Shown: piece after piece, positions 1,248-11,347 of the stretch
Layout of the letters: each line of letters starts with the position of its first letter
Numbering within the stretch: position 1 is the stretch's first letter
From: a bacterium 336/3
Lineage (GTDB): Bacteria > Bacteroidota > Bacteroidia > Cytophagales > Thermonemataceae
NCBI GenBank assembly: GCA_001281695.1
Contig: LJIE01000001.1
Location: 440,107-504,106 of the forward strand
Length of the DNA stretch: 64,000 nt
Reading direction: 5' to 3'
Position numbers and translations under genes: made by a program
Notes under the pieces: model-generated
Databases searched by the model: none
Told to the model about the DNA's origin: nothing
What the model saw: the letters and a program-made list of their open reading frames with translations, nothing else

Positions 1248-2279
1248 CTACAATTTAGGATTTTTGCCTTTTAGCACTTCTATTATATGATTTACCACCA
1301 TCTGAGAAGAATGATAATACCAATGATTTAAGACCTGTGTACCCACATCAGAGCCTTTATCATCTTTGGTTTTAGATACATCTACATCAAAAACATCTGT
1401 AAGAGAGGTGTTTACATATTTCCTGCCATATTTACCTAAGCGATTGCTGAAATTTTTGGTATATTTTGAAATACTCAGAACATGGTCTTTGTCATGGAAA
1501 TAGATATGAACTCTTCTGCCAAAATCTATAAGTTTATAAAAAGCCTCTTGAGGCTCAAAAATATCATATTCTACATCAGCAGCCATGATGAGTATTTCCT
1601 CAAACAATTCGGGAATGCCTGCTTGCAAGTGTTCTAGTTCCAGAATAGTGTGTTTGAGAACTCTGTTGCCCATAGAATGAGCCATGAGGTGTATTTTTTT
1701 GTTACAGGCTGGGTTTCTTTCTTGTACAAGTGTTTTTCTCAAAAATTCTGTAACTTTTAAAATGCCTCTTGCCAATGCCTCTCCTGAACGAATGGCATCT
1801 TTTTTATCATCATGGTAATGCAATGGAAGAGCAGGCGACCTACCAGGCCAAGTAAATATAATAATATGCCCCACAGGTGAGTTGGGGTTTTCTACGTACT
1901 TTTTATGAAGGTTATCAATAGTTTTTCTCAAACTTTCTAAATCTGTATTAAAACCATGAATAAAAAACAAAGTATCAGATTTTTCTACACCTGAAGAAGT
2001 CTTAACCGTATTTGCAGTGAATGCTTTGTACAAATCTGTGAAAAAACGAGTAGAACCTTTGAGATCTGTGCTTTTGGTACTCATTTCTGCCTCTGAAGTT
2101 GCTTTGGCATAATCTAAATCTGAATCTGTTTGGGGTTCAGCGAATAAAACAAACTCTTTTTTGCTTATATCATAACTTCCAAAACGCAAATTATCACTTG
2201 CACTTTCTTTTCCATCTTCTCGGATAGTTTCTACGCTACCCTTCTTGATGATTTCTCGGTTGGTGATGAAGTATATCAT
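1248..2279 (-). CDS. DUF900-type alpha/beta hydrolase
   Basis: A 344-residue alpha/beta hydrolase of the DUF900 family. The oxyanion-side HGFNTD motif is followed about 100 residues later by the nucleophile elbow AHSMGN, with Ser as the presumed nucleophile. AADVEYD supplies a likely acid residue, and a His-rich stretch near the C-terminus (HWYYHSS) could supply the base. No signal peptide or lipobox is visible. The ATG at 2279 (MIYFITNRE) is preferred because it begins 4 bases after the amidase stop codon; the frame is open further upstream but would then overlap the amidase. Tight spacing implies one transcript with the amidase. The substrate is unknown; DUF900 members include esterase- or lipase-like enzymes and some secreted effectors. 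Confidence 0.8.
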   Translation of the reverse strand: MIYFITNREIIKKGSVETIREDGKESASDNLRFGSYDISKKEFVLFAEPQTDSDLDYAKATSEAEMSTKSTDLKGSTRFFTDLYKAFTANTVKTSSGVEKSDTLFFIHGFNTDLESLRKTIDNLHKKYVENPNSPVGHIIIFTWPGRSPALPLHYHDDKKDAIRSGEALARGILKVTEFLRKTLVQERNPACNKKIHLMAHSMGNRVLKHTILELEHLQAGIPELFEEILIMAADVEYDIFEPQEAFYKLIDFGRRVHIYFHDKDHVLSISKYTKNFSNRLGKYGRKYVNTSLTDVFDVDVSKTKDDKGSDVGTQVLNHWYYHSSQMVVNHIIEVLKGKNPKL

Positions 2280-2283
2280 AATA

Positions 2284-3078
2284 TTATTTCTTTTCGTAGT
2301 CTGTAAGGGTTTTTGCCATTTCAATGAGTTTGGGCTGGGGGCTTACATCTGTTTTCCAAGAAATAAAGCTATTGTGGGTATAAATGCCCGCTACACCATC
2401 AATCCCTTTTTGGCTTACTTGCCACATTTCGGCTTCTCGGTAGGCAAGAGGCACACCAAAACGCATGGCATTGAGGAGCGTCCAATATTTAAGAGTTGTT
2501 ATTTCTTTTTTGGTGTAGGCTTCATAATATTTTGAGCCTTTGTAATTGAGTTCAATGGCTTTGCTTTTGGGAAGTTCTACATTTGCCCAAGTATAAAGTT
2601 TTCCGTTTTTTTCTGTCAGATTACCCCAATTGCAGATTTCAACGGCTACACTCTGTTGGTTTCGGGCAAGGTTATTGAGGTGTTTCATGCCGATATGGTG
2701 AGCCCAATAGCTTTCATCGTAACCTCTAAAAACAGTGCCATCATCTACAATGCCTACTGCTGTGGCTACATGCATCACCCCATCATTTCGCCACCAATCG
2801 AACATGCCACGAGCATTATCCCAACCAGCCGAATGATGCCATACAATTTGGTTTTTGGAATAGGCTTGCTGAAAATAATAACCTCCAAAATTTTGGAGGT
2901 CTACGACATTCAGAAGTTTTTGATAAAGAGCATTGTAGGTTATCAAACCTGCCAAGCCATCTTGGGCAAGCTTTTGACTTTTCTGAAAAGCCTTGATGCT
3001 ACTAAAACCTAATTCTGAAAGGAGATTCATCAGAATATTTCGGCGAAGAGTTTTTTGGTTTTCGGAGATGATTTCCAT
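2284..3078 (-). CDS. N-acetylmuramoyl-L-alanine amidase (Amidase_2/PGRP fold) with N-terminal peptidoglycan-binding-like segment
   Basis: A 264-residue predicted peptidoglycan amidase, which would cut the bond between MurNAc and the stem peptide. Residues about 20-56 resemble a peptidoglycan-binding helix bundle (FQKSQKLAQDGLAGLITYNAL). The catalytic domain spans about 75-245. Likely zinc ligands are a His in IVWHHSAGW (His81/82), the His in GIYTHNS and the Asp in TDVSPQP, the order seen in T7-lysozyme-type amidases. No signal peptide is visible, which is odd for a wall enzyme; export might be by another route, or the enzyme might act on its own wall only under special conditions. It is the first gene after the palindromic promoter at 3115-3180. 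No phage structural genes are nearby, so it does not look like a prophage endolysin. Confidence 0.85.
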   Translation of the reverse strand: MEIISENQKTLRRNILMNLLSELGFSSIKAFQKSQKLAQDGLAGLITYNALYQKLLNVVDLQNFGGYYFQQAYSKNQIVWHHSAGWDNARGMFDWWRNDGVMHVATAVGIVDDGTVFRGYDESYWAHHIGMKHLNNLARNQQSVAVEICNWGNLTEKNGKLYTWANVELPKSKAIELNYKGSKYYEAYTKKEITTLKYWTLLNAMRFGVPLAYREAEMWQVSQKGIDGVAGIYTHNSFISWKTDVSPQPKLIEMAKTLTDYEKK

Positions 3079-3114: not shown

Positions 3115-3180
3115 TAAACTTACACAAAAAAAAACTTCTATACATCAGGGAATCCCTGATTTTACAATGGTGTAATAAAA
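3115..3180 (-). promoter_or_regulatory. palindromic activator-like promoter of the amidase operon
   Basis: On the minus strand a perfect palindrome (arms ATCAGGG/CCCTGAT, 3144-3160, 3-base centre) is followed 21 bases later by TAAGTTTA (3122-3115), close to the Bacteroidota -7 consensus TAnnTTTG. That puts the palindrome centre near -41. The same palindrome, the same 21-base spacing and the same distal TTTTATTACA block (3171-3180) recur upstream of the gene at 7794-8138. Confidence 0.65.
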
Positions 3181-3331
3181 TAATTTTTTTTAACAAAAAA
3201 AATGGACAAAATTACAGAATTTGTGCAATAAGCCTATATTGTTAATGAAAAACTGATGTAAGTTTTTTATTAATTTTCCACTTTAATTTTAAAAAAAAAA
3301 GATTTTAATTGTAAAGACTCACCAAAAAAGA

Positions 3332-3742
3332 CTAAGAAACAGAAGCTGAAAAATGAACTTCAACCAATTCTTTGAGCATGGTAGTAGTCAGGGGTTTTCT
3401 TCTAAAATCTTGAATGACTTTCATGCTTTTGGCTTTCTCTTCTTCATGCAAACTGATAGAAGTGGTGAGCATCACCACCATAATTTTATCTTTATGAGGG
3501 ATGTTCTGGTTTTGATAGGCTTCTAAAAAATCCCATCCATTCATAATGGGCATATTGATGTCCAAGAGTATCATATCAGGTATAGGATTACTAGAATCAT
3601 TTAGATATTCTAACGCATCTTGTCCGCTTTCTACAATGGTACAATGGTTTGTACAATCAGTTTGATTGATAACCAATTGATGTAGAAAATTGGTCGGTTC
3701 ATCATCATCTATCAAAAGTATAGAGTGTAATTTTTGTGTCAT
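3332..3742 (-). CDS. CheY-like single-domain response regulator
   Basis: A 136-residue receiver domain with no output domain. The acidic pocket DDD is at residues 12-14, the phospho-acceptor is Asp61 in LLDINMP, the conserved Thr is in MLTTS, and the conserved Lys is in RRKPL. Such stand-alone receivers act by protein contact, often in phosphorelays or on motility, or as phosphate sinks. It lies 122 bases downstream of the NarL-type regulator, so it is probably part of the same signalling set, but it may have its own promoter. Its partner kinase cannot be told from sequence; the two kinases just upstream are the obvious candidates. Confidence 0.88.
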   Translation of the reverse strand: MTQKLHSILLIDDDEPTNFLHQLVINQTDCTNHCTIVESGQDALEYLNDSSNPIPDMILLDINMPIMNGWDFLEAYQNQNIPHKDKIMVVMLTTSISLHEEEKAKSMKVIQDFRRKPLTTTMLKELVEVHFSASVS

Positions 3743-3864
3743 AAGTGCAATAAGCTTTATACAAAATTATTATATTTTTTACAATGAGCCAAACTTATCT
3801 GACATTGTCTTGTATTTTTTACTCAAAGTGTTTTTGAAAAAGAAAAAGAGCATATCTTAAAATT

Positions 3865-4530
3865 TTATAAAACCACCCAACCCATTCTTACAGCATATAA
3901 AATGACACCAGATATGGACTTTGTTCCAAGTTTGTGCATGATATTATTTCTATGTGTTTCAACAGTTTTCACACTAATAGAAAGTTTTTCTGCAATTTCT
4001 CGACTACCCATTTCGTCGCAAACACATAAAACAATATCCTTTTCTCTATCAGTTAGGAGGGCAGTGTTATCTAAACTAGGTATTTGTTTTTCATGGTGAT
4101 CTTTGAGAGCATCCCTTAAACTTTTTGTAAAATAAATACCTTTAGAATATACGTCTTCAATGGCTTTGATAACTTCTTTAGGTTCACAATCTTTACTCAA
4201 ATAGCCATTTGCTCCTAAGTCCAAAAGATGTGTAGCATAACGCTCTTGAGGATGTGAAGATAAAATAATGATTTTGAGTGGATGGTCTGGAAATTTCTCT
4301 TTGATTTGTTTGGTAACAGCTATACCATCCATATCAGGCAATTGCAAATCTAATAGAAGCACATCAGGAGCTACCTGTCCCGATTCTAAGTATTCTATGA
4401 ATGTAATACCACTTGTATCTTCCAAAATCACCTGTATAGAACCCATAAAATTCAGGATATTGACAAGCGATTTTCGAAAAAGTATTTGGTCATCTATTAA
4501 GGCAACTTTGATGGGTTCAGATATAGCCAT
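3865..4530 (-). CDS. NarL/FixJ-type response regulator with LuxR HTH
   Basis: A 221-residue two-component regulator. The receiver domain covers about 6-125 with acidic pair Asp13-Asp14, phospho-acceptor Asp61 (LLLDLQLP) and Lys in YLSKD. The LuxR-type helix-turn-helix covers about 150-215 and is well conserved (LTDREKDIVLCV, then SREIAEKLSISVKTVETHR). The ATG at 4530 (MAISEP) is preferred to a TTG three codons earlier. It lies 45 bases downstream of a NarX-type kinase, with a second such kinase before that, the usual NarX/NarL pairing. A LuxR-type dimer is a natural candidate to bind the palindromes at 3144-3160 and 8225-8241, but this is inference. Confidence 0.92.
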   Translation of the reverse strand: MAISEPIKVALIDDQILFRKSLVNILNFMGSIQVILEDTSGITFIEYLESGQVAPDVLLLDLQLPDMDGIAVTKQIKEKFPDHPLKIIILSSHPQERYATHLLDLGANGYLSKDCEPKEVIKAIEDVYSKGIYFTKSLRDALKDHHEKQIPSLDNTALLTDREKDIVLCVCDEMGSREIAEKLSISVKTVETHRNNIMHKLGTKSISGVILYAVRMGWVVL

Positions 4531-4575
4531 GTAGTGCAAAAGTGTTTTGTTTTGCTAACAATCTACAAAAAAAAC

Positions 4576-5334
4576 TTAAATAGGCAAAGCAATTTGTACA
4601 CAAAAACCTTGGGGTATGTTTAGAAATTTTATGTCTCCTTGAGAAGCATTGACTCTACTCTCAATATTTTTTAAACCTAAACCTTTTTTCTGAAGAATGA
4701 CAGCTTGCTCCATGCCTTTCCCATTGTCCGAATACTCTAAAACAGTCTTTTTGCCTTGTTCAGAGAGATTGACAGAAATTGACTTGGCTTGAGCATGTTT
4801 TAAAGTATTTTGAGAAAGTTCTAAAATGATTCTATAAAAAGCTAATTCTTGTTCATAAGAAAGTTTATAAGCTATTGCATACGAAAACTGGATTTCTATA
4901 AGATGTTGAATACTATCAAAAAACTGTTTTAAACTGTTTTCTAAACCAAATGTAGCAAGAAAAGTAGGAGAGAGTTCGTGTGAAAGGTTACGAATTTGAT
5001 TTAAAGATCTTTCTAACAATTTTTTGCTCTCTGCAATCGTATTTTGTAATAAAGAAGGATTGTTGAGGATTTCGGGTAAAAACGCAATTTGCATTTTTGC
5101 TGCTGCCAAAATAGAGCTTACTTCATCGTGGAGTTCCTGAGCTATTTTTTCTCTTTCCTTTTCTTGAGATTCAATACTTACTTTAGTTAATTCTTTTTGT
5201 AGCCTAATTTCATTTTTATATAAATTCCTCTGAAATTTTAATATAAGAAGTATGATTACTATTCCTAATCCGAAAATAAGTAATGTTCCAACAAGAATAA
5301 TAGTATCAATCCAATTTTTCTCGAAATTATCCAT
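4576..5334 (-). CDS. NarX-type (HisKA_3) histidine kinase, downstream copy
   Basis: A 252-residue sensor kinase with one N-terminal membrane helix (about 11-32) and almost no extracellular part. It continues through a short coiled coil into the HisKA_3 dimerisation helix, where His69 in EREKIAQELHDEV is the phospho-acceptor. The ATPase domain follows with an N box (ELSQNTLKHAQ), the DNGKGM box and the GLGLKNIESRV box. It is closely related along its whole length to the kinase directly upstream (5396-6169). It has no recognisable sensor domain, so input probably comes from another protein, most plausibly the adjacent seven-helix protein now broken by the IS. It should phosphorylate the NarL-type regulator 45 bases downstream. 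Confidence 0.9.
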   Translation of the reverse strand: MDNFEKNWIDTIILVGTLLIFGLGIVIILLILKFQRNLYKNEIRLQKELTKVSIESQEKEREKIAQELHDEVSSILAAAKMQIAFLPEILNNPSLLQNTIAESKKLLERSLNQIRNLSHELSPTFLATFGLENSLKQFFDSIQHLIEIQFSYAIAYKLSYEQELAFYRIILELSQNTLKHAQAKSISVNLSEQGKKTVLEYSDNGKGMEQAVILQKKGLGLKNIESRVNASQGDIKFLNIPQGFCVQIALPI

Positions 5335-5395
5335 ATTTAATATCAGAGTTGTTGCAAACCAAATTAAATACTAAACTTCAAATAAGCAAATTTTA

Positions 5396-6169
5396 TTATG
5401 AATGGGTTTTCAGTGATAAATTAATTTGTAGGGCAAAACCAGAAGAAACATTTATAAATTCCAAATTTCCTTTCAAAGCATTAATTCTATTTTCAATGTT
5501 TTTGAGCCCAAATCCTTTTTTCTGTTTTAAAATAGTTTTAGACATTCCTATTCCATTGTCATAATATCTGAATATCAAATGATTATTCTCTTCCAAAAAT
5601 ACAATAGAAATTTGACTGGCTTGAGCATGTTTAAGTGTATTATGAACCAACTCCAATGCAATTCTATAAAAGGTTAGTTGGTGTTCATAAGGCAAGTCTT
5701 GTTGAATATCATAAGTAAAATGAATGGCAATATGCTCCTTTAGATTTTCTAAAAAATATTTTAAGCTGTCTTTCAAGCCAAAAGTAATTAATTGAGTAGG
5801 TGAAAGCTCATGGGATAAGTCTCGGATTTGATTAAGAGATATTTCTAAAAGTTTTTTACTTTCATCAATGGTGTTCTTTCTTAACTGACAATTATCCCAT
5901 ATTTCAGGTAAAAAAGCAATTTTCATCTTAGCTGCTGCTAAAATGGAACTTACTTCATCATGGAGTTCCTGAGCTATTTTTTCTCTTTCTTGTTCTTGTA
6001 TTTGAATGTTCTCTCTTAAAGCATGTAAATAAAGCTTTTGATAGAGATTTTTTTGAGAAAATATAAAAAGAATCAAAACCAAACTTCCAAAACCCACAAT
6101 GATAATAACTGTACCTATGAGAAGTATGGCGTATAATGATGTTTCTTTGGGGATGAGGGTGTAATCCAT
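5396..6169 (-). CDS. NarX-type (HisKA_3) histidine kinase, upstream copy
   Basis: A 257-residue kinase with the same layout as its neighbour: one membrane helix (about 14-37), coiled coil, HisKA_3 helix with His70 (EREKIAQELHDEV), N box (ELVHNTLKHAQA), DNGIGM and GFGLKNIENRI boxes. No sensor domain is present. Its start codon lies inside the 3' end of the membrane-protein gene (55-base overlap), which suggests translational coupling and a physical partnership with that protein. The two kinases are clear tandem duplicates; they may form a heterodimer or answer different inputs. Because the IS element lies upstream on the same strand, current transcription of this gene may depend on read-through from the transposase. 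Confidence 0.9.
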   Translation of the reverse strand: MDYTLIPKETSLYAILLIGTVIIIVGFGSLVLILFIFSQKNLYQKLYLHALRENIQIQEQEREKIAQELHDEVSSILAAAKMKIAFLPEIWDNCQLRKNTIDESKKLLEISLNQIRDLSHELSPTQLITFGLKDSLKYFLENLKEHIAIHFTYDIQQDLPYEHQLTFYRIALELVHNTLKHAQASQISIVFLEENNHLIFRYYDNGIGMSKTILKQKKGFGLKNIENRINALKGNLEFINVSSGFALQINLSLKTHS

Positions 6170-6702
6170 ATTCCTATGCCAATAGCAGTGTAGAGAACAA
6201 CTAAAAATACAATATGTAGCATCCAGATAAGGTAATTAAAATCTGTACCTCCAAATTTTAGCACAGAATTGCTTAAAGAAAGAATAAGGAAACTCCCTAA
6301 AAAATACAAGCAAATGCCTGTTACAATCGCAAAATTATTGTTGTTTTCTTGAAATTCTCTAATAGTATCAATTTTAGGAATGGTTCTGATAAGATAAGTA
6401 ATACTATAAGTTAATAAAATCAGGGATTCAGCAAAACGAGCATATGTATTAAAACTCTGTAAACTTTGTAAATACATAGAAAAATAAACTGCCAAAGCTA
6501 AAAATAAAATGTTGATGGTACTAAAAACAGCTTTATGGATTTCATTACGAAGAATATGCTGATAAAATAAAGACAGACATATGAATTCAAGAGGTGTATA
6601 AAAATGGTATAAATAGAGATTATTTTTAGGCTTTCCTGGCCAAAGAAAATGCTGAATGAGTTGGGCAACTAAACCTAAACACAAATAGAACTTGTTTAAC
6701 AT
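6115..6702 (-). pseudogene. seven-helix membrane protein, C-terminal six-helix part (gene split by IS element)
   Basis: This open frame holds six hydrophobic helices, ending in a basic tail that overlaps the downstream kinase gene. The first five codons (ATG at 6702 to TTC ending at 6688) are the terminal inverted repeat of the IS element, so native sequence begins at 6687. Joining 7594 directly to 6687 restores one reading frame of about 231 residues and seven helices with the 7582-7716 fragment. The YHFYTPLEF stretch lies in the third helix of the rebuilt protein. I do not recognise a named family; the position suggests a membrane sensor for the NarX-type kinases. The remnant could still be translated from the IS-supplied ATG, minus the first helix. 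Confidence 0.75.
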
Positions 6703-7593
6703 TTAATGAATCTAGAAAAAATAACAATCATAGCTAAAATATTAAAACAGAACCAATGTTTAGCAAGGTATTCATATCTAATCAAAAGAGCTTTGAAAGC
6801 ATCCATCCAAGCAAAAGTTCTTTCAATAACAAATCTTCTTTGATATAGCACTTCATCAAAATGATGACAAAGTTGATTATTTTGTGTATTTCTTTTATTA
6901 AAATCAATATTAGTTTCTATTTGATACTTTTCACAAGTTTTTCTACAAATATCATTATCAAATCCAGCATCAGCATTCAAGAACAAACCTTCTATGGAAA
7001 TATCAGCTTTTTCAAGCCAAACTATCAGTTGTTTAAAATGTTGTGAGAAATGAAACATGTCATGATGATTTCCACTAACAGGTTCTGAAATAGCTATTAA
7101 TATCCCCTGATTATCACATAAATATACTAAATTAGTACTTGCTTTGGAATGTTTATGATTAAATCCCACTGCTTGTCCACCTCTGTTGGCTCTTGTTTTT
7201 GAACCATCTATCTGAATACTAGACATATCCAAATACTTTTTATAGTGCTTCAACAAATAAACCCACAATTTTTCCCATGAACCATCCTCACACCAGCGTT
7301 TGAAATGATAAAATACACTTTGATAACTATATTTTTCTTCAAAAAAACGTTCTGTAGGAAGTTCTCTCCACTGACAACCTGTTTTTAGTCTATATAAAAT
7401 TGCTGAAAGAATACCAACCCTTTTTTTCTCTGAAATACTTAGTCCTCGTCTTCCAACACTTAAATGAGGTAATATTAGCTTTTTTATTCTATCTTTGCTC
7501 AAGATGCTCATAAAGTAATTTTGTTTGTTTGCACTACAATAGTATACTTTTTTGAGCATCTTTGTTTATAGTATTATAACCTTAGACAACTTC
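6688..7593 (-). mobile_element. IS5-family insertion sequence, about 906 bp
   Basis: The ends were set from imperfect terminal inverted repeats: GAACTTGTTTAACATT reading inward from 6688 and GAAGTTGTCTAAGGTT reading inward from 7593 (12 of 16 bases match). The GAAGTTGT-type end and the transposase fit the IS5 family. The flanking triplets are ATA on the left and ATT on the right, so a clean target duplication is not visible. The element contains one intact transposase gene and lies inside a membrane-protein gene, on the same strand. Confidence 0.75.
6696..7511 (-). CDS. IS5-family DDE transposase
   Basis: A 271-residue transposase that appears intact. The N-terminal half carries the usual IS5 helical domain (GILSAILYRLKTGCQWRELP). 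The DDE catalytic residues are Asp in SIQIDGSKTRANRGG, Asp in LFLNADAGFDND, and Glu in the YQRRFVIERTFAW region, which has the Y-(2)-R-(3)-E pattern of IS4/IS5 enzymes. The ATG at 7511 (MSILSKDR) matches the usual family start; an in-frame ATG at 7559 would add 16 residues. The stop codon lies within the left end of the element and overlaps the ATG that opens the truncated membrane protein (ATGTTAA). Transcription running out of this gene would enter the kinase operon. Confidence 0.9.
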   Translation of the reverse strand: MSILSKDRIKKLILPHLSVGRRGLSISEKKRVGILSAILYRLKTGCQWRELPTERFFEEKYSYQSVFYHFKRWCEDGSWEKLWVYLLKHYKKYLDMSSIQIDGSKTRANRGGQAVGFNHKHSKASTNLVYLCDNQGILIAISEPVSGNHHDMFHFSQHFKQLIVWLEKADISIEGLFLNADAGFDNDICRKTCEKYQIETNIDFNKRNTQNNQLCHHFDEVLYQRRFVIERTFAWMDAFKALLIRYEYLAKHWFCFNILAMIVIFSRFIKC

Positions 7594-7716
7594 ATTAAAA
7601 AAAATCCATCTAATACCATGCTTTATATAAACCTTTTTTATAATACCCAAAATTATACCTAATACCATAATAGTTGAAGGTATAAGGGCTATCCAAAACA
7701 TAATTGTATTTTTCAT
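7582..7716 (-). pseudogene. seven-helix membrane protein, N-terminal fragment (gene split by IS element)
   Basis: A 44-codon frame starting at ATG 7716 and encoding one strong membrane helix (IALIPSTIMVLGIILGII) followed by a basic loop. The last three codons and the stop lie inside the IS end, so 41 residues are native. The last native codon ends exactly at 7594, in the same phase as the first native codon of the C-terminal part at 6687, so the two fragments form one uninterrupted gene without the IS. It lies 77 bases downstream of the 114-residue gene and would be the second gene of that operon. Confidence 0.7.
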
Positions 7717-7793
7717 AACATCATCATTTGAGATTATTAAAATAATTTTAGTGGGCTTAGACTCAAAATAGCTGGTTGAAAAGGTTTAAATGA

Positions 7794-8138
7794 TTATCCA
7801 CCTAATCCACCTGTTCCAGGACAAATAGGAGGACAAGGTAATGCTAAATTATAAATGCTATCTAAAATATTATTTCCCTTCTCGTCCACTCCAACCATCA
7901 TCAAATGATTATTTAAGTCTTCATCCATACCAAAGTAAATACGAATATTGACAACATTAGGAGCGTTCAAGAGTTTTTCTATCTCTCTTCTGTGGAGTAA
8001 ATAAGCTTTTGGGAAATATGGATTGTCTGCAGGTCTTTCTTTGTTGAAAGGAACTACAAATTCTTGCCAACGCTTAGCCCATTCGTTAGCTACTTTGAGA
8101 GGTATAAGACCATCTTCAGGGTTTACTACAAATGCCAT
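7794..8138 (-). CDS. conserved-looking small protein with Cys-rich Gly tail, function unknown
   Basis: A 114-residue protein that I cannot assign to a named family. No signal peptide or membrane helix is seen. Residues about 20-70 are charged and helical, residues about 70-100 look like strands (IRIYFGMDEDLNNHLMMVGVD), and the protein ends in LPCPPICPGTGGLGG. The two closely spaced Cys near a Gly-rich end could bind a metal, form a disulphide or be a processing site. It is the first gene after the palindromic promoter at 8196-8261, and the broken membrane receptor and kinases follow, so it may be a component of that signalling system. That placement is the only functional clue. Confidence 0.75.
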   Translation of the reverse strand: MAFVVNPEDGLIPLKVANEWAKRWQEFVVPFNKERPADNPYFPKAYLLHRREIEKLLNAPNVVNIRIYFGMDEDLNNHLMMVGVDEKGNNILDSIYNLALPCPPICPGTGGLGG

Positions 8139-8195
8139 AATTAAAAAGGGTTAGAGTGTGTAACGATTAACTTAAAATAGTTAGTGGTGTTTGTA

Positions 8196-8261
8196 CAAAG
8201 GTAAGTAACAGAAAATTGCTATGCATCAGGGAATCCCTGATTTTTGATATGTGTAATAAAA
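8196..8261 (-). promoter_or_regulatory. palindromic activator-like promoter of the 114-residue gene and signalling operon
   Basis: On the minus strand the perfect palindrome ATCAGGG/CCCTGAT (8225-8241) is followed 21 bases later by TACCTTTG (8203-8196), a full match to TAnnTTTG. The TTTTATTACAC block lies upstream at 8252-8261. Layout and spacing are identical to the site at 3115-3180. A palindrome centred near -41 with no TTTG at -33 is the layout of a class-II activated promoter. Confidence 0.7.
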
Positions 8262-8469
8262 AATATCACTTCGTTTTTTATTGATAAGAAAAACAGTGTT
8301 TTTAGATTTTTATAGCACTTTTGTATAAAAAACAAAGAAAAAAAAGGTGTAATGTTTTTGAGTTTTTTTAATTTTTTAACTTTTTAAAGAAGTTTGAAAA
8401 ATAAAGTATATGCTTGAAAAACAAAAAAATTACCTTCGAGAAGAACAACTTTTAGATGATAAAAAAGAA
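8262..8469. other. gene-free AT-rich stretch
   Basis: Together with the promoter region this makes about 330 bases without a gene. It contains long A and T runs and no convincing ORF, RNA gene or strong hairpin. A 38-codon plus-strand frame starting at 8410 runs antisense into the LRR gene and is not supported. Confidence 0.5.
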
Positions 8470-9888
8470 CTACATTTCTTCAATATCCCAATGAACTTCT
8501 ACACCTTTTTTACGGAGATTGTCTAAAATTTCTTGACTGCCTTTTTTGATACTGGGGCTACAACCCACAATTTTTTTAAGATGTTGTAAACCCTCAAACA
8601 CAGAAGCATCCAATTCAAAATTGAGAAGCGTATAAAAAGTACGAAGATTGGGCATTTTTGTAATTACTTCCAATTCTTCTTGTGAACTGGGGTCAAATGA
8701 TAAATCTCGCATTTTGGTTAAATTTTGAAGGTTTATTTGGCTGGGCTTACTCGATTCGTAAATAATTAGTGTTAGCTTTTCTAAATCTGTTAACCCTCCA
8801 ATGGCATCAATATTTTGTAAAGGATTGGCTTCCAATTCTAAAATTTTTAGACCTTTTAAAATATGGATAGGTGTGAGATCTGTGAGTTCAAAGCCACCTG
8901 CATAAAGCATTTTCATTTTGCTGATATTTCTCAAATCTTCAGGGCTAAGAGGAGTTTCTAATAATTGACCAAGCAAATCTTTTGAATAAATATGCTGAAA
9001 TTGATTGAATGTAATCATTCCATCAAAGTTATGTTTGATACTTGGGAAAATATTATTCTTTTGAATATGATAATTTGCATGAATTACTTTCTTCCAGTTT
9101 TCAGAAAGCCCAGACCACCAATTTTCTAATATATCATCAGAGGGTGGGATAATGTCAGAATTGTAAGCAAGTGTATGATATACAGGTGTTTTGGTTTCTA
9201 CAAAATCTTTTGTGTAATATAAAAAATTAAAAGTAGCAGACTCCCAGTAGCATTTTTCTTGAACATGATGCAACAAAAACACACTTTTAGGATTGGCTAT
9301 AATACGTAAATGATAAGTAGGGTTGGGCTCATCTTGATGTTTGTCATACGTTTCATCATCAAATCCCCATGAAATTTTTTCGTACTCCAACCATGTTTCT
9401 ACTCTATCAAACCAATGAGGAAAGTCTTTGACTTGTAAAACTTCTACTTTCTCAATGTGTTTCTCTGCCTCTCTACAAAATTCATCATATTCTGTTTCTA
9501 AAGAAACATAGTATTCTCCATTTTCCATGCCTCTACTAGAAAGTTTTTGTCCTTTATACTCAAAACTTCCATCTTTTTCCATTTGGTCGTATTCCTCTTC
9601 TGTGATAGGGATTTTTCTCCAACGCATTTTTTCCAAAAGTTCATCCATTTCTTTTTTGTAATTTGTATCAAGCAATTGTTTTGCCTTTTCTTCATCAAAG
9701 GGATAGGAAGACCAATTACTATTATAAACATGCCCTAATACCATGTTTTCATAAAGTTCCATGATAATTTGGAGAGCAAAATTGGGGGAATCGTTGATAT
9801 GATGTTCATCTGGGTGTACAATCTGCACTTCCACATCAAGTACATTAGCCTTTTTAGATAAAATATTGAAAGAAATGAGAGAAGACAT
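8470..9888 (-). CDS. leucine-rich-repeat protein with unrecognised N-terminal domain
   Basis: A 472-residue protein, probably cytoplasmic because no signal peptide is seen. Residues 1 to about 290 form an acidic, aromatic-rich domain (many Trp, Tyr, Glu) that I do not recognise. Residues about 310-460 carry degenerate leucine-rich repeats (LKGLKILELEANPLQNIDAI; LTDLEKLTLI; MPNLRTFYTLLNF). It lies upstream of the signalling operon on the same strand but behind that operon's own promoter, so it is probably a separate unit. The block is bounded by LRR proteins on both sides, the other being the SMI1-LRR protein at 1-1150, though the two share no obvious N-terminal similarity. Confidence 0.8.
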   Translation of the reverse strand: MSSLISFNILSKKANVLDVEVQIVHPDEHHINDSPNFALQIIMELYENMVLGHVYNSNWSSYPFDEEKAKQLLDTNYKKEMDELLEKMRWRKIPITEEEYDQMEKDGSFEYKGQKLSSRGMENGEYYVSLETEYDEFCREAEKHIEKVEVLQVKDFPHWFDRVETWLEYEKISWGFDDETYDKHQDEPNPTYHLRIIANPKSVFLLHHVQEKCYWESATFNFLYYTKDFVETKTPVYHTLAYNSDIIPPSDDILENWWSGLSENWKKVIHANYHIQKNNIFPSIKHNFDGMITFNQFQHIYSKDLLGQLLETPLSPEDLRNISKMKMLYAGGFELTDLTPIHILKGLKILELEANPLQNIDAIGGLTDLEKLTLIIYESSKPSQINLQNLTKMRDLSFDPSSQEELEVITKMPNLRTFYTLLNFELDASVFEGLQHLKKIVGCSPSIKKGSQEILDNLRKKGVEVHWDIEEM

Positions 9889-10024
9889 AATAATAAGGTT
9901 TTGATAACAAGACTAATATATAAGAGTCAATCCGTAAATACAATAAGGAATAACATTTAAAATGTATATTTTCTGAAACTTTTTAGAACAAATATGTTTT
10001 ATTATCTTTACAGAAATAAAGAAT

Positions 10025-10723
10025 ATGAAAAGCTATTGGCAAAATATAGCAGAAGGCATCCAAAGTAGCCTGATAGGAATAAAATTAACGCTCAAACATT
10101 TGTGGAAAGCTCGCAAAAGACGAGAACAAATTTATGTGAGTAATCATAATTATTTTGAAGAAAAAGAAGGTAGAGTAACCCTTCAATATCCAAAAGAAAC
10201 GTTGCCATTACCTGATATTGGACGTTATCAGCTTCACAACGAAATGGATGATTGTATTGTATGTGATAAGTGTGCCAAAATTTGCCCAGTAGATTGTATT
10301 GATATTGAGCCTATTAAGTCAGTAGGTGAGTTTGGTAAAACTTCTGATGGTACAAGTAAACGCCTTTATGCTGCCAAGTTTGATATAGATATGGCAAAAT
10401 GCTGTTTTTGTGGTTTATGCACAACTGTTTGCCCCACAGAATGCCTAACTATGACAGACGAATACGATTTTAGTGTAACCAATATTTTAGAACACAATTT
10501 TAAATTTGGAAATCTTTCTGAAACAGAAATAGAAGAGAAAAAAGCTCTTTATGAACAGTACACCAAAGAAAAAGAGGAAGCTAAAAAGAAAGAACAACAG
10601 GAAAAAGAAGCTTTAAAAGCTCAGGAAAAAGAAAATCAGGAGAGTTTGGGTAATTCAGAAAATAAAGAAGAAACCCAAAAAACTGCAAAAATAACATTTA
10701 AACCAAAGTTTAAACCTAAGTAG
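10025..10723 (+). CDS. nuoI: NADH-quinone oxidoreductase subunit I-like 2x[4Fe-4S] protein
   Basis: A 232-residue NuoI-like subunit that carries the N6a/N6b clusters of complex I on the cytoplasmic side. Two classic 4Fe-4S motifs are present: CIVCDKCAKICP (about residues 77-88) and CCFCGLCTTVCP (about 126-137). The N-terminal amphipathic helix region (GIQSSLIGIKLTLKHLW) fits membrane association. The last 60 or so residues are a Lys/Glu/Gln-rich tail (from KEEAKKKEQQEKE) not found in ordinary NuoI. No other nuo gene is adjacent; a nuoC-like gene lies about 11 kb away. It could instead be a NuoI paralogue in another ferredoxin-linked complex. It converges with the HupE gene, 3 bases apart. Confidence 0.85.
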   Translation: MKSYWQNIAEGIQSSLIGIKLTLKHLWKARKRREQIYVSNHNYFEEKEGRVTLQYPKETLPLPDIGRYQLHNEMDDCIVCDKCAKICPVDCIDIEPIKSVGEFGKTSDGTSKRLYAAKFDIDMAKCCFCGLCTTVCPTECLTMTDEYDFSVTNILEHNFKFGNLSETEIEEKKALYEQYTKEKEEAKKKEQQEKEALKAQEKENQESLGNSENKEETQKTAKITFKPKFKPK

Positions 10724-10726
10724 TAG

Positions 10727-11347
10727 TTATTGCAACGTTCTTTCCAATAAAATACTTAAAGAAACGCCAAATGCAATCCCTGAAAGAAAAGTCGTCCAAG
10801 TGAAAGTTTTAGTTTTTAAGATATTTACAAAAATTACAGATAAGAATAAAATAAACCCAATAATTAAAATTTGCCCTGCCTCAATACCCACATTAAATGC
10901 TAAGAGTGGCATAACAATACTTGGTTCAGTTGCTTTTGTGGTGTTTTCAAACCAATCTTTTGAATTGCTAGTCAGCAATTGACTCAACTGATTTGAGAAA
11001 GCAGCACCATGTATAAGTCCAAAAATGGTAGCAACACCATACTTTAACCACATCAAAGGGCGTTCATCTTTATTCCAAAATAAGTTGAATAGAGAAGTAA
11101 GTAAGATACTCAATGGAATAAGCCAATTTTCGACAAGTGCCGTATTAATATGGATAATTTTAAAAGTAATAAGAGCTAAAGTTATAGAATGCCCAATTGT
11201 GAAAGCAGTAGCCAATACAAGCAATTTTTTCCAATCTGATACCAAATAGCAAGCACATAAAGCCACCAAAAAAAGGATGTGATCTTGGGCTTCTATCCCA
11301 ATGATGTGTCCAAACCCTATTTTAAACCAAATTGAAAACTGTTCCAT
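10727..11347 (-). CDS. HupE/UreJ family membrane protein
   Basis: A 206-residue polytopic membrane protein of the HupE/UreJ type, with about six helices. Family marks include the N-terminal GFGHIIGIEAQDHILFLVAL, the FTIGHSITLAL motif and FGLIHGAAFS, whose His residues may bind a metal. HupE/UreJ proteins are thought to carry nickel or, in related forms, cobalt; no hydrogenase or urease gene is in this window, so the metal is unknown. It begins 2 bases upstream of the stop end of the next minus-strand gene's span, so it is read just after the outer-membrane-like gene at 11350-12507 and probably shares its transcript. Confidence 0.8.
   Translation of the reverse strand: MEQFSIWFKIGFGHIIGIEAQDHILFLVALCACYLVSDWKKLLVLATAFTIGHSITLALITFKIIHINTALVENWLIPLSILLTSLFNLFWNKDERPLMWLKYGVATIFGLIHGAAFSNQLSQLLTSNSKDWFENTTKATEPSIVMPLLAFNVGIEAGQILIIGFILFLSVIFVNILKTKTFTWTTFLSGIAFGVSLSILLERTLQ

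Follow-up and report, generated by a model that had tools for sequence, protein, structure and literature searches.

A palindromic promoter element shared by operons with antiphage defense genes in bacterium 336/3

Here, we show that a 17-bp palindrome found twice in a 64,000-nucleotide stretch of the genome of bacterium 336/3 (Thermonemataceae, Cytophagales; assembly GCA_001281695.1, contig LJIE01000001.1, positions 440,107 to 504,106; hereafter the window) occurs 22 times in the 4.71 Mb genome, each time inside the same elaborate promoter. About half of these promoters sit in front of known types of antiphage defense genes, and the bacterium therefore appears to run much of its antiviral immunity from one switch. 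Our best reading, to which we assign a probability of roughly 0.7, is that of a defense regulon that is probably activated by a dimeric regulator, where the binding of that regulator and its effect on expression are inferred from sequence alone.

The starting point was an earlier note on the window, which reported that two promoters share the palindrome at a fixed distance of 21 bases from a -7 box. The observation in the note is correct, although it captured only a small part of the element. Both 17-mers (ATCAGGGATTCCCTGAT) are present on the minus strand and are identical, and a scan of the window returned two matches against 0.04 expected. The spacing to the -7 boxes, the TGTAATAAAA block (plus strand; TTTTATTACA on the promoter strand) at the same distance at both sites, and the shared flank (CTATRCATC on the plus strand) are as the note described. 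The features of the two window loci, designated site A and site B, are as follows (positions are those of the window).

3144 to 3160, minus strand: invariant 17-bp palindrome of site A, offset 0 of the element; identical in the 22 genomic sites apart from the central T (20 sites) or A (2 sites).
3115 to 3122, minus strand: -7 box TAAGTTTA of site A, 21 bases from the palindrome.
3171 to 3175, minus strand: proximal TTACA box of site A, offset -15.
3257 to 3261, minus strand: distal TTACA box of site A, offset -101.
2284 to 3078, minus strand: first gene of operon A, an N-acetylmuramoyl-L-alanine amidase-like protein (Amidase_2, 264 aa; the Pfam score of 23 bits is below the cut-off of 26), with no PADLOC hit.
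1248 to 2279, minus strand: second gene of operon A, a DUF900 alpha/beta hydrolase (343 aa from the ATG), with no PADLOC hit.
8225 to 8241, minus strand: invariant 17-bp palindrome of site B.
8196 to 8203, minus strand: -7 box TACCTTTG of site B, 21 bases from the palindrome.
8252 to 8256, minus strand: proximal TTACA box of site B.
8348 to 8352, minus strand: distal TTACA box of site B, offset -111, about one helical turn further out.
7794 to 8138, minus strand: first gene of operon B, a 114-aa protein with no Pfam, PADLOC, or NCBIfam hit at E<=1e-3 and weak homologues in 4 of the other 147 genomes sampled from the order.
6696 to 7559, minus strand: IS4/5-type transposase gene (DUF4096, DDE_Tnp_1), between the 114-aa gene and the signaling genes.
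3332 to 6702, minus strand: signaling genes (a 195-aa protein of no Pfam family, two HisKA_3 kinases, a NarL/LuxR response regulator at 3865 to 4539, and a lone receiver), whose membership in the regulon is uncertain.

To determine how widely the palindrome is distributed, the whole genome was scanned. The scan revealed 22 perfect copies, none with one mismatch, and 8 with two mismatches, as compared to 5 with two mismatches for the reversed control. The reversed control gave no exact match, and about 0.0003 copies are expected by chance. The note had named random placement across the genome as one outcome that would refute it, and this is not what we found, since all 22 copies lie 41 to 200 bp 5' of the ATG of a mechanically called ORF on the same strand. 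Chance repeats are thus refuted, and an intrinsic terminator-like hairpin is very unlikely. While the plus strand of site B scores as a terminator-like stem with a T tail, the orientation before an ORF is the same in 22 of 22 sites. In addition, there was no Rfam match at the gathering score in the 10 of 22 loci searched, and the palindrome arms never vary, which leaves no covariation to test.

Alignment of the 22 sites showed that the conserved block is about 150 to 205 bp rather than 17 bp. The sites form a gap-free alignment of 88 columns, with a mean pairwise identity of 99% in the palindrome, 69 to 73% beside it, and 38 to 42% outside. The TA of the TAnnTTTG-like -7 box is found at the 21-base spacing in 21 of 22 sites (TT in the other). 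The proximal box at offset -15 is TTACA in 21 of 22 sites (TTACG in the other). A second TTACA box is present at -100 to -102 (19 sites) or -111 (3 sites), and thus in 22 of 22 sites, as compared to a mean of 0.19 and a maximum of 3 of 22 in control windows. Eleven of the 22 sites also have a second, AT-rich palindrome near -154 (at least 19 of 24 positions; 0 of 2640 control windows), the exact core of which occurs eight times in the genome, seven of them at these promoters. The statement in the note that the rest of the intergenic sequences are not alike therefore holds for plain identity, but boxes at fixed distances are hidden within them.

To establish whether the element is found in other organisms, a sequence model of the element was searched against 148 genomes of the order. 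The model recovered the 22 sites at 67 to 84.5 bits, while the next match in any of the genomes scored 21.2 bits, with strict filters that may lose weak matches. The element was not found in the other 147 genomes, including seven of the same family. A sample of the phylum contained one stray copy of the 17-mer in 394 other genomes. A scan of GTDB genomes for the bare 17-mer, which covered only part of the collection, returned at least 98 stretches, all of which look like chance by flank score (best 22 of 51, as compared to 34 to 48 for the 22 sites). Plasmid and phage record collections queried with one 121-base copy gave no match. The element does, however, head an operon in a metagenomic phage contig, although the five genes behind it have no PADLOC hit.

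To characterize the genes behind the element, they were searched against the PADLOC profiles. All 22 first genes were scanned, and later genes only in part. Hits at E<=1e-6 were obtained for 9 of 22 first genes and 11 of 22 operons (SspBCD, two type I R-M, a Pycsar cyclase, a DRT accessory, two SIR2, Old/AriA-like, Septu-like, and GmrSD-like), as compared to 2 of 20 evenly spaced control genes (Fisher p 0.025 and 0.006, the second of which compares operons with single genes). These counts leave out a PAS-LuxR gene whose hit (CARF3, E 5e-8) rests on its HTH region and which would raise them to 10 and 12. A NACHT NTPase that partly matches EruA was also found. The enrichment is modest in size. 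Among 80 control genes scored only by family, at most 7 (shown families) to 15 (upper bound) match, resulting in p values of 0.001 to 0.03. Eleven of the 22 operons have no counted hit, including both in the window, and one starts with a berberine-type FAD enzyme. Moreover, at least one defense-type gene (AbiTii near 1.9 Mb of contig C1) has no element within 13 kb, so coverage is not complete.

The interpretation in the note is partly supported. The note proposed a conserved regulatory site at the position of a class II activator, near -41, and not a duplicated segment. This is supported, with the palindrome center at about -42 if the -7 box spans -12 to -5, as described for flavobacterial sigma-A promoters with a TAnnTTTG -7 box (PMC9723704). 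The -7 box at the 3' end of the element is of this type, whereas the -33 region is taken by the palindrome. Three further points are not supported. First, the note described a pair of local promoters, while we find a 22-member set rich in antiphage systems. Second, the note suggested the LuxR-type regulator at 3865 to 4530 as the binding protein, but this response regulator is not singled out by the data. Third, the note had site B drive the signaling operon in addition to the 114-residue gene, which is doubtful because the transposase gene lies in between.

What the sequence itself shows is 22 palindromes with invariant arms, on the main contig, on plasmid-like contigs, and at a predicted prophage, each in the same promoter architecture with fixed spacings and each followed by an ORF on the same strand, and recognizable defense genes in 11 of the 22 operons. 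Beyond this we are inferring. Our current hypothesis is that a dimeric regulator binds the palindrome at about -42 and acts as a class II activator for the housekeeping sigma factor, because the -33 region is occupied by the palindrome edge (ATG in place of TTG) and because the 21-base spacing is kept. The two TTACA boxes, which are 85 to 87 or 96 bases apart (about one helical turn of difference), are read as sites on one face of the DNA for a second protein or for a wrapped or looped complex. Alternatively, the palindrome could be a repressor operator, or a silencing site, that keeps costly defense genes off until a signal or phage releases it. It overlaps the -33 position, where a bound dimer could block polymerase, and many of the listed systems are toxic when active. 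We consider this unlikely, since repressor sites usually tolerate various positions, whereas here the spacing is kept in 21 of 22 sites, the upstream boxes are conserved out to about -151 from the estimated start, and the missing -33 TTG should make the bare promoter weak.

A less certain inference concerns the identity of the regulator. The leading candidate is an orphan PAS-LuxR protein (C1:3175490-3176191) encoded directly behind one of the 22 elements (C1:3176276), which could indicate autoregulation. The protein has a GerE HTH (E 7e-17), and no PAS hit was returned by Pfam at E<=1e-3. In a predicted structure with a mean pLDDT of 84.9, the domains match only singly, with PAS-B domains at a target TM of about 0.8 and several LuxR proteins listed, while whole-length matches are poor (query TM 0.40 or less). 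The protein would be a sensor built like VqmA, the PAS-LuxR quorum-sensing receptor (PMC8284805; 6ide), which activates transcription and whose operator AGGGGGGATTTCCCCCCT has a similar core consisting of a G-run, an AT center, and a C-run. However, the VqmA operator has a 4-base center and the palindrome here a 3-base center, and a relationship to VqmA beyond the fold was not supported by sequence. No VqmA chain was present among 31 PDB sequence matches (E<=0.01), in which the matched stretches lie in residues 116 to 233. The candidate has no homologue at E<=1e-8 in the seven family relatives, which also lack the element, and ten loci of its homologues in other families hold no such palindrome. 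The assignment rests on position, domain types, and a resemblance of operator cores. Another protein could be the regulator, for example the window response regulator (3865 to 4539) with its two kinases. It has a LuxR-type HTH, lies 3' of site B, and likewise has no close orthologue in family relatives (best 31 to 35% identity at E<=1e-20). We regard this as unlikely given the intervening transposase gene and the PAS-LuxR gene directly behind another site.

We also considered that the block is a mobile or recombinogenic element (a promoter-carrying MITE, or the end of a cassette or att site) that brings or captures defense genes, with regulation being secondary. Consistent with this, the element stands before unrelated genes, on plasmid-like contigs, inside a phage contig, and before the amidase gene, whose orthologues in two genus relatives (83 to 84% identity) lack the element upstream, and the fixed TTACA boxes could be arm sites of a recombinase. 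However, no clear shared 3' end was found. In 420-base stretches after first genes and after operons, no 10-mer with two or more G/C was shared by more than 4 of 22 loci, where shuffles reached 3 and 4, respectively, and at -600 to -160 none was shared by more than 3, a figure without a shuffled comparison. A blastn comparison (E<=1e-4) over up to 7.5 kb downstream revealed only short intergenic matches, upstream parts of the element itself, and overlapping regions. Furthermore, the -7 box always faces a start codon, the flank identity of 69 to 73% is not that of recent copies, and the palindrome alone is invariant, as expected of a binding site under selection. When the flanking genes of two loci were traced in relatives to look for empty sites, the gene order was too scrambled for comparison. 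We consider a mobile element improbable.

Coordinated control of defense has precedent. In Serratia, quorum sensing involving the repressor SmaR controls several CRISPR-Cas systems (PMC5179492), so that one regulator coordinates several defense loci in one cell. SmaR is a LuxR-type protein. There, three CRISPR-Cas types are controlled, whereas here 22 operons, 11 of them with hits to many unrelated defense classes, share one invariant operator and a fixed promoter architecture. In Vibrio cholerae, HapR and quorum sensing activate CBASS (PMC10653837), where a density-dependent regulator raises the transcription of a single system, while here the operator is spread over many defense-type operons. 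Transcription factors of the WYL type, such as SiwR, also govern antiphage genes. Of this type, BrxR and CapW sit inside and control their own system, whereas here one operator is spread over 22 separate loci. Literature searches on shared promoters, regulons, or coordinated control of defense systems returned no paper on one operator shared by many unrelated defense systems, within a partial coverage of the literature that leaves out most subscription journals and bioRxiv.

The finding bears on the open question of how bacteria coordinate their many immune systems, for which the regulators known to us act on one system or are global regulators of much else. Here, one exact, countable operator marks 22 loci, half of them with known defense types, so coordination is directly testable, and the other half, including the two window operons, is a ready list of candidate new defense genes found by promoter rather than by neighborhood. 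In our reading, acquired, resident, and phage-borne genes alike have come under this promoter, and one signal would raise many defenses together. A more far-reaching and tentative possibility, which we consider less likely than not, is a dedicated "interferon-like" antiviral regulon, in which a single small-molecule-sensing PAS-LuxR activator, itself in the regulon, would switch on some twenty unrelated immune systems at once. Any gene from the chromosome, a plasmid, or a phage would join the immune program by acquiring the ∼205-bp promoter, temperate phages would exploit it to drive their own exclusion genes, and the element would be a sequence tag for discovering unknown defense genes, such as the amidase-hydrolase pair and the 114-aa protein. 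The absence of the element from the sampled relatives, together with its presence in a phage contig and in front of a gene that relatives also have, makes it a case of how a regulon is built in one lineage.

To verify the two palindromes described in the earlier note, we first examined the window itself. The observation held: both palindromes are present and identical, each lies 21 bases from a -7 box (TAAGTTTA and TACCTTTG), and the upstream TTTTATTACA block is found at equal distance from both. In the window alone, two matches were found where 0.04 were expected. The two sites are referred to as follows.

3144-3160, minus strand: palindrome of site A
8225-8241, minus strand: palindrome of site B

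To determine how widely the motif occurs, the source genome (4,714,744 bases, 13 contigs, 99.33% complete) was scanned. The scan revealed 22 perfect copies of ATCAGGGAWTCCCTGAT, none with one mismatch, and eight with two mismatches, where the reversed control has five. The exact reversed control has 0 copies and base composition predicts 0.0003. On the promoter strand, twenty copies carry the centre ATT and two carry AAT. The 22 sites lie on six contigs, with 16 on C1, two on C2, and one each on C3, C6, C7, and C8. A ParA-like and a ParB-like gene, read by eye from translations, stand within 3 kb of the sites on C3 and C7, and we therefore refer to these contigs as plasmid-like. However, a ParA-type ATPase is also the first gene behind one C1 site, so this is only a hint. 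Another short repeat family (pieces of 35-82 bases, 77-94% identity) recurs in DNA near three of the sites (loci L026, L028, and L031).

An alignment of the 22 sites extends over 88 columns without a gap and indicates that the palindrome is one part of a larger promoter. Mean pairwise identity is 99% in the palindrome, 73% in the 25 bases before it, and 69% in the 30 bases after it, as compared to 42% and 38% outside. The consensus is TTATTTTATTACACCAnTGCAAA-ATCAGGGATTCCCTGAT-GCGTRGnAGTTTTTTATTnnnTAGATTG. The TA of the -7 box is exactly 21 bases from the palindrome in 21 of 22 sites, and the exception has TT. If the -7 box is placed at -12 to -5, as in flavobacterial sigma-A promoters (PMC9723704), the palindrome centre falls near -42. 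The place of the usual -33 TTG is taken by ATG from the edge of the palindrome. First ORFs start 41-200 bp downstream (median 62.5) on the same strand in 22 of 22 sites.

Additional upstream parts were revealed when a phage contig that carries the element, described below, was found to align with several of the genome's own sites over about 170-220 bp. Counting TTACA at each offset showed one box at -15 in 21 of 22 sites (the other has TTACG) and a second box at -100 to -102 in 19 sites. The remaining three have it at -111, and thus 22 of 22 sites have the second box, whereas control three-base windows have on average 0.19 and at most 3 of 22. The spacing between the boxes is 85-87 or 96 bases, about one helical turn apart. 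In addition, 11 of 22 sites contain a palindrome close to AATTAAATGTTATAACATTTAATT at -148 to -157 (at least 19 of 24 matches), a level reached by 0 of 2640 control windows. Its core, AATGTTRYAACATT, occurs exactly eight times in the genome, seven of them at these promoters. The only exact copy elsewhere (C1:378401-378414, positions 1501-1514 of locus L268) lies under 50 bp before a gene that reads by eye as YceI. A similar site with two mismatches lies beside a YceI-like gene near the locus of the PAS-LuxR protein discussed below (L031), which hints at a second regulator common to YceI genes and half of the defence promoters. The one-turn shifts and fixed phasing speak for a putative protein complex on one face of the DNA. 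ALTERNATIVES. A repressor operator is possible, but the invariant spacing and the conserved upstream boxes favour activation.

To identify the genes associated with the promoter, the genes behind the sites were searched with PADLOC (E<=1e-6). Nine of 22 first genes were hit: Old-like; PycC (Pycsar cyclase); AriA/NsnB-like; the YodC accessory of DRT, with a Drt2 reverse transcriptase 410 bp further 3'; type I R-M (HsdR, followed by HsdS); PDC-M62A, followed by PDC-M62B (Septu-like); HEC-06/GmrSD-like; SspB, followed by SspC and SspD; and PDC-S11, with type I HsdR and HsdM as the third and fourth genes. The PAS-LuxR first gene also has a hit (E 5e-8) to a CARF-HTH model, but through its HTH region, and it was not counted. 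Two more operons have a SIR2 gene of the ThsA/LmuA type as the second or fourth gene, resulting in 11 of 22 operons, with genes beyond the first scanned only in part. A twelfth operon has a 1264-aa protein of which residues 31-219 match the NACHT antiphage protein EruA at E 1e-14, far below that model's cut-off. Two first genes are HSP90-type ATPases by Pfam. One of these has no PADLOC hit and the other, in the operon with the SIR2 fourth gene, has a weak one (E 6e-4). Others have no family, or one not tied to defence (GYF_2, berberine-type FAD enzyme). As a control, 2 of 20 evenly spaced genes matched (AbiTii and an SNF2-type helicase), giving Fisher p values of 0.025 for first genes and 0.006 for operons, although the latter compares operons with single genes. 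In a wider control of 80 genes that included these 20 and was scored per family, 25 families account for at most seven members and a further eight families for at most eight more (p 0.001 to 0.03).

Within the window, site A is predicted to drive an amidase-like gene and a DUF900 hydrolase, and site B a 114-aa protein of no known family. These are candidate defence genes by promoter only. The amidase has orthologues at 83-84% identity in two of three genus relatives, whose upstream DNA lacks the element. The promoter thus stands here before a gene that relatives also have, though in other surroundings. The GC content of the amidase gene (0.41) is higher than that of the other first genes (0.25-0.37; genome samples 0.33). 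A second amidase-like stretch in the same genome (C1:390219-391022) is 54% identical to the window amidase and contains two in-frame stops, and is likely a pseudogene. The earlier note had also placed a signalling operon under site B. However, these genes are cut off from the site by an IS4/5-type transposase gene (6696-7559), around which an inverted-repeat search gave no clear terminal pair, and we do not count them as shown members. The note's interpretation of the sites was supported only in part.

To examine the distribution of the element, related genomes and viral sequences were searched. The exact palindrome is present in one of eight family genomes, the source genome only. The 88-base model finds the 22 sites at 67-84.5 bits and nothing above 21.2 bits in the other 147 order genomes, the seven family relatives among them. 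In 394 other genomes of the phylum there is one stray copy, and a GTDB-wide pattern scan returned at least 98 chance-like stretches. In IMG/VR, 16 stretches have the 17-mer and two of these have the flanks. The first (L188) is the source genome's own site C1:1607223 or a near-identical copy, at one side of a contig called viral in that database. The second (L250, IMGVR_UViG_3300037462_000908) is part of a 48 kb metagenomic contig with genes that read by eye as terminase, portal, and prohead. Here the element, with a spacing of 22 rather than 21, heads a five-gene insert (about 7751-10850) within the structural genes. The first product matches GvpU below its cut-off, the third belongs to family TIGR04255, and none of the five has a PADLOC hit. 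This could be a phage-borne exclusion operon. A mobile promoter or cassette end was also considered for the element, but this reading is weakened by the lack of a clear shared sequence beyond the block. The best 10-mer is shared by 4 of 22 after first genes (shuffle maximum 3), by 4 after operons (shuffle maximum 4), and by 3 upstream. It is weakened further by the age implied by 69-73% flank identity around an unchanging palindrome, while an empty-site comparison in relatives did not weigh either way.

The gene directly behind site C1:3176276 encodes a 234-aa protein with a LuxR/GerE HTH. A structural model built from 11 aligned sequences (mean pLDDT 84.9) has a PAS-like order of helices and strands before the HTH. 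Foldseek matches to the model include EL222, a Bacteroides LuxR protein, SdiA, HIF PAS-B domains (target TM about 0.8), and the VqmA-DNA complex, although whole-length matches are loose (query TM 0.40 or less). No homologue was found at E<=1e-8 in the seven family relatives, which also lack the element. In the order sample, 55 of 147 other genomes have a match, many through the HTH alone, and one order relative (G103:C6:57987-61527) has five tandem paralogues. The ten longer homologues that were aligned are 23-33% identical, and their loci hold no such palindrome. VqmA needs AGGGGGGATTTCCCCCCT (PMC8284805), a core like GGGATTCCC in this genome but with a longer centre. Based on inferred autoregulation, domain build, and operator type, this protein is the leading candidate for the regulator, with a probability of about one half. 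The alternative proposed in the earlier note, the response regulator of the window, has no close orthologue in relatives either, and thus co-occurrence does not separate the two.

In earlier work, quorum sensing raises three CRISPR-Cas types in Serratia (PMC5179492) and CBASS in Vibrio cholerae (PMC10653837). Among the papers listed in the literature collection searched, we found none on a single operator shared by many unrelated defence systems. Taken together, the two palindromes of the window are real and belong to something much larger. The anatomy of the operator and its promoter is well supported by the sequence, whereas binding, activation, and the identity of the regulator are inferred. 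The element defines a putative 22-promoter regulon enriched in anti-phage systems, and defence is likely its common theme.
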